Of a stretch of DNA of 39,720 nucleotides, positions 14,713 through 17,351 are shown one piece after another. Positions within the stretch are counted from its first letter, which is position 1, and each line of letters begins with the position of its first letter. Source of the stretch: Caldifarciminota bacterium (GTDB taxonomy: Bacteria > Hydrothermota > Hydrothermia > B15-G9); the NCBI GenBank assembly GCA_015489175.1, contig WGAI01000018.1, forward strand, positions 1 to 39,720. The letters run 5' to 3'. The position numbers and the translations under genes were made by a program. The notes beneath the pieces were generated by a model. It did no database searches. It had not been told where the DNA came from and saw only the letters and a program-made list of their open reading frames with translations.

Positions 14713-15243
14713 TTGAAAAAACACCTCCGTAACATCCCCATCATAATTCTTGCAACTCTTTTTTTGAGGGGATGTTACAATCCTTTTCACCCCCTCATGC
14801 ATGAGGGGGATTTTATTAAACCCGTTGAGCCTGAACTTGTTATCGATAACCTCGTAATGGCTTTCAATTCCAGAGACATCCTTGGATACATCAACTGCCT
14901 TGATCCAGACTCGTTCCGTTTCTTTTTCGATTCGGCCGAGGACTCCATCGAGGAGATTTTGAGGCAGAACCTCGGCCTCGATAGCCTTTACTGGGGTATA
15001 GAAGAGGAACGCATTTCAACGGAAGCCCTGTTCAATTCAGCCGATTACCTTTACCTCGAAATGATTTACATTGGTGGATTCAGGCCTTCGGAGGACAGAG
15101 CCGCGTTGTATTACGATTACCATCTTGAGATTGTGCCATCACCCGAACAAAAGCCCATAGAAGGCAGAGGATACTTTATCCTTAAGAAGCACAGCAACGG
15201 ATTGTGGTATATACTTGAATGGCATGATTTTGCATATAGTTAA
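14713..15243 (+). CDS. Putative lipoprotein of unknown function
   Basis: A 176-residue protein with a basic N-terminus and one hydrophobic segment (IPIIILATLFL) ending at LRGC with a cysteine at residue 21. The lipobox is imperfect because arginine sits at position -2, so lipidation is likely but not certain. The mature part is acidic and aromatic-rich, with a segment (LVMAFNSRDILGYINCLDPDS) that recalls NTF2-like lipoproteins of uncultured diderm bacteria. The only usable start is a TTG at 14713, three bases after the rpmA stop, consistent with coupled translation. Sharing a run with an amidase suggests an envelope role, but I do not recognise the family with confidence. Confidence 0.75.
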   Translation: MKKHLRNIPIIILATLFLRGCYNPFHPLMHEGDFIKPVEPELVIDNLVMAFNSRDILGYINCLDPDSFRFFFDSAEDSIEEILRQNLGLDSLYWGIEEERISTEALFNSADYLYLEMIYIGGFRPSEDRAALYYDYHLEIVPSPEQKPIEGRGYFILKKHSNGLWYILEWHDFAYS

Positions 15244-15260
15244 AAAAGGAGTTAGAAAGC

Positions 15261-17351
15261 ATGTTGAAAGGTAAGGTTGTGGTCATCGACCCGGGACATG
15301 GTGGTGACGCCACAGGCGCTATTGGGCCGACCGGGCTTAAAGAGAAGGATGTCAACCTTTCGGTTGCGCTCATGCTTGCGGAGATGCTCAAAGCCGCTGG
15401 CGCTTCCGTCTATCTCACAAGAGATGGCGATTACGACATTCCTCTTGCTGATAGAGTTAAATTCTCCCTTGAGAAAAAAGCCGACGCTTTCGTGTCCATT
15501 CACCACAACGCCAACGCAAGAAGGGACTCTTCAGTGGATAGAACGGAGATCTACTGCGTTTTTGAGCCCGATTCCCCGTCCTTCGACCTTGGCTACCTGC
15601 TGTTTTATTCTTTCAGGAAATATCTTGGCCTTCCGACAGTGCCGCCGCTTCCCGCGCGATACAGGGTTCTGAAGGGTAATGTGCCTGTTTCCGTTCTGGG
15701 AGAGGCCTCTTACATTACCAATCCAGCGGAGGAAAAGAAGCTTGCGACCGAAGAATACCGTCGTAAAGAGGCGCTCGCATATTACGAAGCGTTGAAGATG
15801 TATTTCGATCGCGGCGTGCCGATGATCAAGAACCTTGATGTGAATGTCAGTAAGGGATTGGTAACCGCTGAGATAGTGGACGAGGATGGCATGGGCATCG
15901 ATGCGAGCTCGATATCACTTCTGCTCGACGGGAAACCGCTGGAGTTCGAGTTCGCTGAGGGCAGATGGCTGGCAGCTGAGTTGCCTGAGCTTCTTCCAAA
16001 CGGTGAGCATGTTGTTGAGTTGAAGGCAAGGAATCTCAACGGAAATGTGACGCCACCATCGAGATACACCTTCAAGATCAAGAGGAGGGCAGAATCCTTT
16101 GCGGTTACCCCTTACCCTGAGAATTCGAGGAACCCGTTGATGGTGACCATCCGCCTTGTCGATTCCTACGGCATGCCCATAGCCGAAGGCGAACGGGTCA
16201 TCATGAGCGTTCCGTCCGGCAAAATACTGGCCATTCAGCCGCACGCCGATGCTGATGGATGTGTGAGGGCAGTTATCAGGTTTGAAGAAGCAGGCGGGAA
16301 TGTAGAGATCAAGGTTCGCGACTTCGAGGGTGTCGGCATGGTCAAGGCTGTAAGGCGGAAAAGCAGTCCGTATCTTTTCGGAAAGTTAGTTGACATCAAC
16401 GAAAGACCTATCGAAGGCGCCACAGTTAAGGTCAAAAACAGGCATTACACGACAGTGCTTGGCGGATATTTCCTGATACCGCTTCCCATCGATGGGCCGT
16501 GGACACTGGAGTTCAAAAAGAGAGGGTTTTACCCCACATCCGTGGAAGTTACCGAGGATGAGTTAGATGATGAGCAGCGGGTTGTCATAACCCCGATGTT
16601 CGGCGGCGTGCTTCTTGGCAGGAAGATAATCGTCGATCCGGCGATAGGCGGTAGGGTGAAGGGCAGGGAGTATCTGCCCGGTCTGACATCTTCAAGGGCG
16701 AACCTGTTTGTTGCGAAAATGTTGTATGAGATGCTTTTCGCTGCGGGGGCCGATGTGGTGCTCACAAGGTCAGACGAAGAGACCACTGTCGAGGAAGTTG
16801 AGCGTGTCAAACAGATCATAGATGAAGGTGGCGACCTCCTCGTGTCCATCGATCACCGTGATAGCGACAGATACATGGAGCCCGGCACGCACTTTTACTA
16901 TAGGGATACGGAAAGCATGGAGTTCTCGAAGAGGATATCGAGGCTTATGGGCAAGCTGTTAGATGTCGAAGTCGATGCGCGGGAATGGTCATCCTACCTG
17001 ATTATCCATCCTCCGATGACGCGTTCGCTCGTCGTGTTCCCTGAGCTTTCCACATCCCGTATGGATGACTTTGTGAAACGTGCCTATGTGCTGCTTCTTT
17101 CGATCGTGGAGCATTTGGGGTTCAGACCTGTCAAATACAGCGGTCTACTTCTTAACGAGAAGCGCGATCCAATCCCTGATGCGATGGTTATTTCCGAGGA
17201 ACAGATAGCAACCTATACCGATGAGCGCGGACGCTTCGCATTTCTGCATCTCAGACCTGAGCCACAGATATTGAAAATCATAACTGGCGGCAAATCCTTT
17301 GAGGTTGAGATAGATCCTGTCAAGGGTAAACCAGAGGAGGTTATACTATGA
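15261..17351 (+). CDS. N-acetylmuramoyl-L-alanine amidase (Amidase_3) with a second, degenerate amidase domain
   Basis: A 696-residue modular protein. Residues 5-185 form an Amidase_3 domain with the zinc ligands His13 (DPGHGG), Glu28 (KEKD) and His81 (VSIHHNA) and the catalytic Glu148 (LGEASYITN), which would cut the amide bond between MurNAc and the stem peptide. Residues 190-277 and 278-367 look like Ig-type beta domains. Residues 368-448 resemble a carboxypeptidase-regulatory-like domain. Residues 451-620 repeat the amidase fold (IIVDPAIGG, GLTSSRANL, LLVSIDHRD, VVFPELS) without the zinc ligands. A last regulatory-like domain is at 624-696. There is no signal peptide although the substrate is periplasmic. 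The start ATG has AAGGAG ahead, and the stop overlaps the next start by four bases. Confidence 0.9.
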   Translation: MLKGKVVVIDPGHGGDATGAIGPTGLKEKDVNLSVALMLAEMLKAAGASVYLTRDGDYDIPLADRVKFSLEKKADAFVSIHHNANARRDSSVDRTEIYCVFEPDSPSFDLGYLLFYSFRKYLGLPTVPPLPARYRVLKGNVPVSVLGEASYITNPAEEKKLATEEYRRKEALAYYEALKMYFDRGVPMIKNLDVNVSKGLVTAEIVDEDGMGIDASSISLLLDGKPLEFEFAEGRWLAAELPELLPNGEHVVELKARNLNGNVTPPSRYTFKIKRRAESFAVTPYPENSRNPLMVTIRLVDSYGMPIAEGERVIMSVPSGKILAIQPHADADGCVRAVIRFEEAGGNVEIKVRDFEGVGMVKAVRRKSSPYLFGKLVDINERPIEGATVKVKNRHYTTVLGGYFLIPLPIDGPWTLEFKKRGFYPTSVEVTEDELDDEQRVVITPMFGGVLLGRKIIVDPAIGGRVKGREYLPGLTSSRANLFVAKMLYEMLFAAGADVVLTRSDEETTVEEVERVKQIIDEGGDLLVSIDHRDSDRYMEPGTHFYYRDTESMEFSKRISRLMGKLLDVEVDAREWSSYLIIHPPMTRSLVVFPELSTSRMDDFVKRAYVLLLSIVEHLGFRPVKYSGLLLNEKRDPIPDAMVISEEQIATYTDERGRFAFLHLRPEPQILKIITGGKSFEVEIDPVKGKPEEVIL

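Follow-up and report, generated by a model that had tools for sequence, protein, structure and literature searches.

A tandem amidase of candidate division WOR-3 pairs a zinc amidase domain with a conserved pseudo-amidase domain

What does an amidase domain do in a protein when its zinc ligands are gone? The question is raised by a gene in the window, a stretch of 39,720 nucleotides from a Caldifarciminota bacterium (contig WGAI01000018.1), which encodes a protein of 696 amino acids with two Amidase_3 domains, here called D1 and D2. An earlier note, made from the sequence alone, had described both folds and reported that the second lacks the zinc ligands.

Layout of the protein and fold of the second domain

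The start of the coding sequence at position 15261 is secure, because an in-frame TAG (15237-15239) and the ribosome-binding site AAGGAG (15246-15251) lie just ahead of it. The features of the gene are as follows, with the basis of each assignment in brackets.

15261..17351, forward strand: whole coding sequence of the 696-aa tandem amidase/pseudo-amidase (candidate division WOR-3)
15261..15815, forward strand: D1, predicted catalytic Amidase_3 domain, residues 1-185, with H13, E28, H81 and E148 (Pfam)
15819..16358, forward strand: all-beta linker region of Ig-like type, residues 187-366 (DSSP on the model of the whole chain; weak Big_1/MG4 matches)
16380..16553, forward strand: CarboxypepD_reg (transthyretin-like) domain, residues 374-431 (Pfam, 4.1e-11)
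16611..17126, forward strand: D2, pseudo-amidase domain, residues 451-622 (Pfam, 5.5e-12 alone; pLDDT 92; PDB amidase matches)
16644..16646, forward strand: codon of I462, at the position of zinc ligand His13 (D1/D2 alignment)
16689..16691, forward strand: codon of S477, at the position of zinc ligand Glu28 (D1/D2 alignment)
16851..16853, forward strand: codon of D531, at the position of zinc ligand His81 (D1/D2 alignment)
16989..17024, forward strand: D2 signature SSYLIIHPPMTR, residues 577-588 (a single pattern match per protein in 35 family members, always in D2)
17130..17348, forward strand: C-terminal beta domain, residues 624-696 (DSSP on the model; CarboxypepD_reg reports two stretches)

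The Pfam Amidase_3 profile matched the whole protein at 8e-49. A model of the full-length chain reached a pLDDT of 89.8 and a pTM of 0.83, and its best Foldseek match was AmiC2, with a TM-score of 0.93 over the target. The C-terminal beta domain (639-699 in the numbering of the frame) gave a weak internal match to the first CarboxypepD_reg domain and is probably a second transthyretin-like domain.

We examined D2 separately. Residues 437-629 alone scored 46.5 bits against Pfam Amidase_3 (cut-off 27; E = 5.5e-12), and a genome-wide Amidase_3 search likewise picked up D2 as a separate match. Comparison of the D1 and D2 profiles gave E = 9e-14 over 160 columns. AlphaFold2, supplied with 23 homologous D2 sequences, modelled the domain with a pLDDT of 92 and a pTM of 0.89. 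When this model was compared with the PDB using Foldseek, it matched CwlD (TM-scores 0.79/0.74), CwlV (0.79/0.81), AmiP (0.75/0.81), AmiC2 (0.74/0.74) and also LytH, all at approximately 0.7 to 0.8. The reading of two Amidase_3 folds in one protein is thus backed by Pfam, AlphaFold2 and Foldseek, and the structure check that the earlier note had proposed for D2 returned a predicted amidase fold.

Loss of the zinc site and a motif specific to D2

D1 carries the complete His-Glu-His set of ligands (H13, E28 and H81) together with the catalytic E148, and these were kept in all homologs in which the residue is present. Judged by this set of residues, D1 would be an active N-acetylmuramoyl-L-alanine amidase. 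The profile alignment pairs H13, E28 and H81 with I462, S477 and D531, so the His-Glu-His site is absent from D2; the residues and positions previously given for both domains were correct. Both zinc histidines were missing from D2 in 28 of the 28 aligned homologs; intact zinc ligands, which would have spoken against the earlier reading, occurred in none. A glutamate at the second ligand position (Glu28) survives in the D2 of family f3 only. The earlier note had held that exactly the zinc ligands were lost. This stands for the two histidines, which are gone everywhere, but understates the change, as the DPGHGG loop of D2 is also degraded or deleted in most families.

The same note had proposed Glu595 as the counterpart of the catalytic Glu148. 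This assignment did not survive: E148 lies opposite a gap in the D1/D2 profile alignment, and an ungapped match of the strands would place it at F593. Moreover, column 595 holds Lys, Glu, Arg or other residues, with Glu in 3 of the 17 homologs that have a residue there. A retained catalytic Glu595 was therefore rejected, since the column is variable and the position is not equivalent to E148. Neither the profile alignment nor the homolog columns revealed a catalytic glutamate on the last core strand of D2. With the fold kept and the zinc ligands lost across homologs, D2 is almost certainly a conserved pseudo-amidase, as had been suspected.

In another genome, a 197-aa Amidase_3 frame has its second zinc histidine replaced by aspartate (SIDCN). 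This frame (L093, G039:C106) stands at the start of an intact 473-aa amidase to which it is near-identical, and it looks like a separate, recent partial duplication.

D2 has a conserved signature of its own. Each of 35 family proteins has a single match to the pattern [SG]-x-[YFHQ]-x-x-I-[HQ]-x(3,4)-R, and this match falls in D2 in every case, never in D1. Among the 28 aligned D2 rows, G496, I582 and R588 are invariant, and Tyr occupies position 546 in 27; position 577 alternates between Ser and Gly, and position 583 is divided equally between His and Gln. The motif aligns with the D1 stretch ARYRVLKGNVPV, which comprises the turn and strand leading to catalytic E148. This alignment, together with the secondary structure, suggests that the motif adjoins the former active site. 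D2 is likely to have a function that depends on this motif, which names the residues to mutate.

Conservation, origin and cell location

The nearest named relatives, in a scan that returned the closest relatives only, were metagenome assemblies of candidate division WOR-3. We surveyed 147 genomes of the phylum with a family profile and then inspected the frames. Of the 40 genomes in the window's class, 33 have a D1 followed by a full or reduced D2, the check for D2 covering all but two f9 genomes. Outside the class the pair was found in four genomes (families f17 and f37), so that at least 37 genomes of WOR-3 have it in total. Such a protein is absent from families f5 and f10. The two halves lie apart in 2 of the 37 genomes, on separate contigs in G007 and in two overlapping frames in G141. 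Apart from this one split frame and one contig break, a search with the D2 profile found no stand-alone D2 gene. D2 is thus a fixed partner of the D1-type amidase in at least these WOR-3 genomes and not a local oddity.

Several members depart from the layout in the window. The short forms of family f9 (L084-L089; 329 to 362 aa) retain both the motif and the C-terminal portion of D2; an unrelated-looking segment replaces its N-terminal half, and there is no Ig linker. The overlapping frames of G141 (L096, contig C77) are fused in the sister genome G142, where the protein (L097) has 445 aa and no long Ig linker; the overlap reflects either an error in the sequence or a gene that is genuinely split. 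The window's genome also contains a third Amidase_3 gene (L101, G000:C20:22500-23027), the product of which has 186 aa, no leader and no D2, and reads CAGHS where DPGHGG is expected.

As many pairs of genomes are saturated at synonymous sites, dN/dS was taken from the three least saturated pairs. D2 gave 0.090 (G000/G001), 0.130 (G010/G023) and 0.157 (G004/G006), and D1 gave 0.033, 0.064 and 0.048 for the same pairs in the same order. D2 is clearly under purifying selection, although it is less constrained than D1.

In a tree of D1, D2 and the ordinary amidases of the phylum, each formed its own group. When Nostoc AmiC2 was added and the fastest D2 rows were removed, AmiC2 joined the ordinary amidases with D1 and D2 opposite (support 95/93), in a tree with long D2 branches and this single outside sequence. 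The grouping favors, tentatively, an internal duplication as the source of D1 and D2. Recruitment of D2 from an ordinary amidase is disfavored by the same split, subject to the long D2 branches. A phage or plasmid source was also rejected, as tblastn gave no match to D2 in a phage or plasmid collection.

We recognized no signal peptide or membrane anchor by eye in any family member examined. Where the N terminus is complete, the first strand of D1 lies at the opening of the frame or close to it, and in most members only a few codons precede the amidase core. In contrast, a hydrophobic leader, also judged by eye, stands at the N terminus of most of the phylum's ordinary amidases. By eye, the 696-aa protein shows no sign of the N-terminal leader expected of an exported amidase of the AmiA/B/C type. 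Since a leader is not visible, the protein is probably cytoplasmic, and the simplest reading of the N termini is that the tandem amidase probably acts there. Ig-like and transthyretin-like domains are more common outside the cell, which fits badly with this location.

The neighboring genes encode an aminotransferase, NusB, a metallophosphoesterase and a radical SAM protein, or else DprA, PfkB and M48. These are housekeeping genes that differ between families, so the neighborhood gives no functional hint and was rejected as a clue. Directly upstream of the amidase in the window (14713-15243, forward strand) lies a gene for a small putative lipoprotein that has a leader ending in LRGC and matches no Pfam family; of the loci compared, only those of the window's genus have it beside the amidase. 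The CwlD activator GerS is likewise a lipoprotein; nothing here ties it to the upstream gene.

Possible roles of D2 and comparison with known systems

Because the zinc site has been lost and yet the copy is kept by selection, D2 probably binds something or controls D1. To the more specific proposal, that D2 is a binding module for a ligand derived from peptidoglycan or a cis-acting control on D1, we give about an even chance. According to this model, part of the WOR-3 phylum would descend from an ancestor in which an Amidase_3 domain had doubled within a single gene. The copy at the N terminus would have remained a zinc amidase, while the C-terminal copy would have lost its zinc site and catalytic glutamate, kept its fold and gained a fixed motif in and beside the strand that carries the catalytic glutamate in D1. 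In the cytoplasm, D2 may hold a muropeptide or precursor in the former substrate groove and, with the ligand held, would either position substrate for D1 or switch D1.

Alternatively, D2 may be a structural or docking module that packs on D1 or the linker, dimerizes or binds a partner, with the groove empty and the conserved motif maintaining that interface. The pTM of 0.83 predicted over the whole multidomain chain is consistent with a fixed arrangement, and in other Amidase_3 enzymes control comes through protein contacts outside the active site, an example being GerS with CwlD (PMC8496864). However, the most conserved residues of D2 align to the strand lining the former active site and not to an outer helix, and we regard this role as possible but not the one to be expected.

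A further reading is compatible with ligand binding or control by D2 and specifies it: the whole protein may take the place of AmpD in the cytoplasmic recycling of muropeptides, recognition of the muropeptide falling to D2. In addition to the lack of a visible signal peptide, the window's genome has genes for AnmK and NamZ_N and contains neither Amidase_2 nor GH3 (NagZ), which would leave room for a cytoplasmic recycling amidase. Against it, AnmK was found in only 8 of the 40 genomes of the class (there only in families f1 and f3 and genome G034), and families f4 and f9 have the tandem amidase alongside an Amidase_2 gene. A simple replacement of AmpD was rejected on these grounds, as the family also co-occurs with Amidase_2 and mostly occurs without AnmK. 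Since other genomes with the family show a different pattern, the co-occurrence of recycling genes does not settle an AmpD role, which we consider rather doubtful. The AnmK-bearing f1, f3 and G034 also rank with the groups in which D2 has degraded least, an overlap that is possibly a coincidence.

It is improbable that D2 is a new enzyme with a catalytic site formed by Y546, H/Q583 and R588: a few polar residues are indeed fixed while the old site varies, but position 583 is half His and half Gln, which is unusual for a catalytic residue, and there is no conserved nucleophile or acid. That D2 is a functionless duplicate in decay would fit the extensive erosion, seen in several families, of the DPGHGG loop and of segments from the N-terminal side of D2, but is largely refuted by dN/dS values far below 1, the motif kept in 35 of 35 proteins and the presence of D2 in nearly every genome with a D1 of the same type, and we consider it highly improbable.

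The earlier note knew of no described protein with this layout, and we found none in the open-access literature: our search of it yielded neither an inactive Amidase_3 domain nor a tandem Amidase_3 protein of the D1/D2 kind. A literature search on cell-wall amidases of the WOR-3 phylum found nothing. Beyond what that note described, we add the conservation across much of WOR-3, the purifying selection, the D2 motif, the lack of a visible signal peptide and, tentatively, the internal duplication. These findings point to a leaderless, probably cytoplasmic Amidase_3 protein in the phylum.

D1 and D2 share the fold of the Amidase_3 (PF01520) zinc amidases CwlD, CwlV, AmiC2, LytH and E. coli AmiA/B/C, and D1 resembles these enzymes in all ligands and the catalytic glutamate. 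D2 differs from them in lacking both zinc histidines and that glutamate, and the WOR-3 protein differs in its second amidase fold and in the lack of a visible signal peptide.

Carboxypeptidase D offers a parallel in architecture. It combines tandem metallohydrolase repeats with transthyretin-like domains, and its last repeat (domain III) has lost the metal-binding and catalytic residues, yet is conserved, and flies require it for full viability (PMC5683605). Foldseek with our full-length model matched carboxypeptidase D structures weakly (E of about 1e-7; TM-scores 0.16/0.27). This match reflects the domain types and does not imply common descent; carboxypeptidase D is an M14 carboxypeptidase of the animal secretory pathway and not an amidase.

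Control of Amidase_3 enzymes by partners, the candidate role of D2, has several precedents. GerS controls CwlD allosterically (PMC8496864), and in the EnvC/NlpD (degenerate LytM) and ActH-LytH systems the enzyme is controlled by a partner that is sometimes a degenerate hydrolase (PMC10964502). By analogy, D2 may act in a similar way, but GerS, EnvC/NlpD and ActH are separate proteins of other folds, whereas D2, as a candidate regulator, is a dead amidase copy in cis.

Inactive copies of peptidoglycan hydrolases serve elsewhere as receptors or switches, as in PGRPs and the degenerate LytM activators. The non-catalytic PGRPs (PGRP-LC, PGRP-LE and others) keep a zinc-free amidase fold that serves to recognize peptidoglycan (PMC8124813). 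Like them, D2 has an amidase fold without the zinc site, and it may bind peptidoglycan; PGRPs are animal proteins with the T7-lysozyme-like (Amidase_2) fold. In WOR-3, the inactive Amidase_3 domain is fused to an active-type amidase, has its own motif and is conserved over great distances. D2 may conceivably be a bacterial, Amidase_3-based counterpart of the non-catalytic PGRPs, although we hold this to be rather unlikely: a cytoplasmic receptor for muropeptides or lipid II precursors, in cis to a live amidase and established throughout much of an uncultured phylum that often lacks recycling genes of the AmpD/NagZ type.
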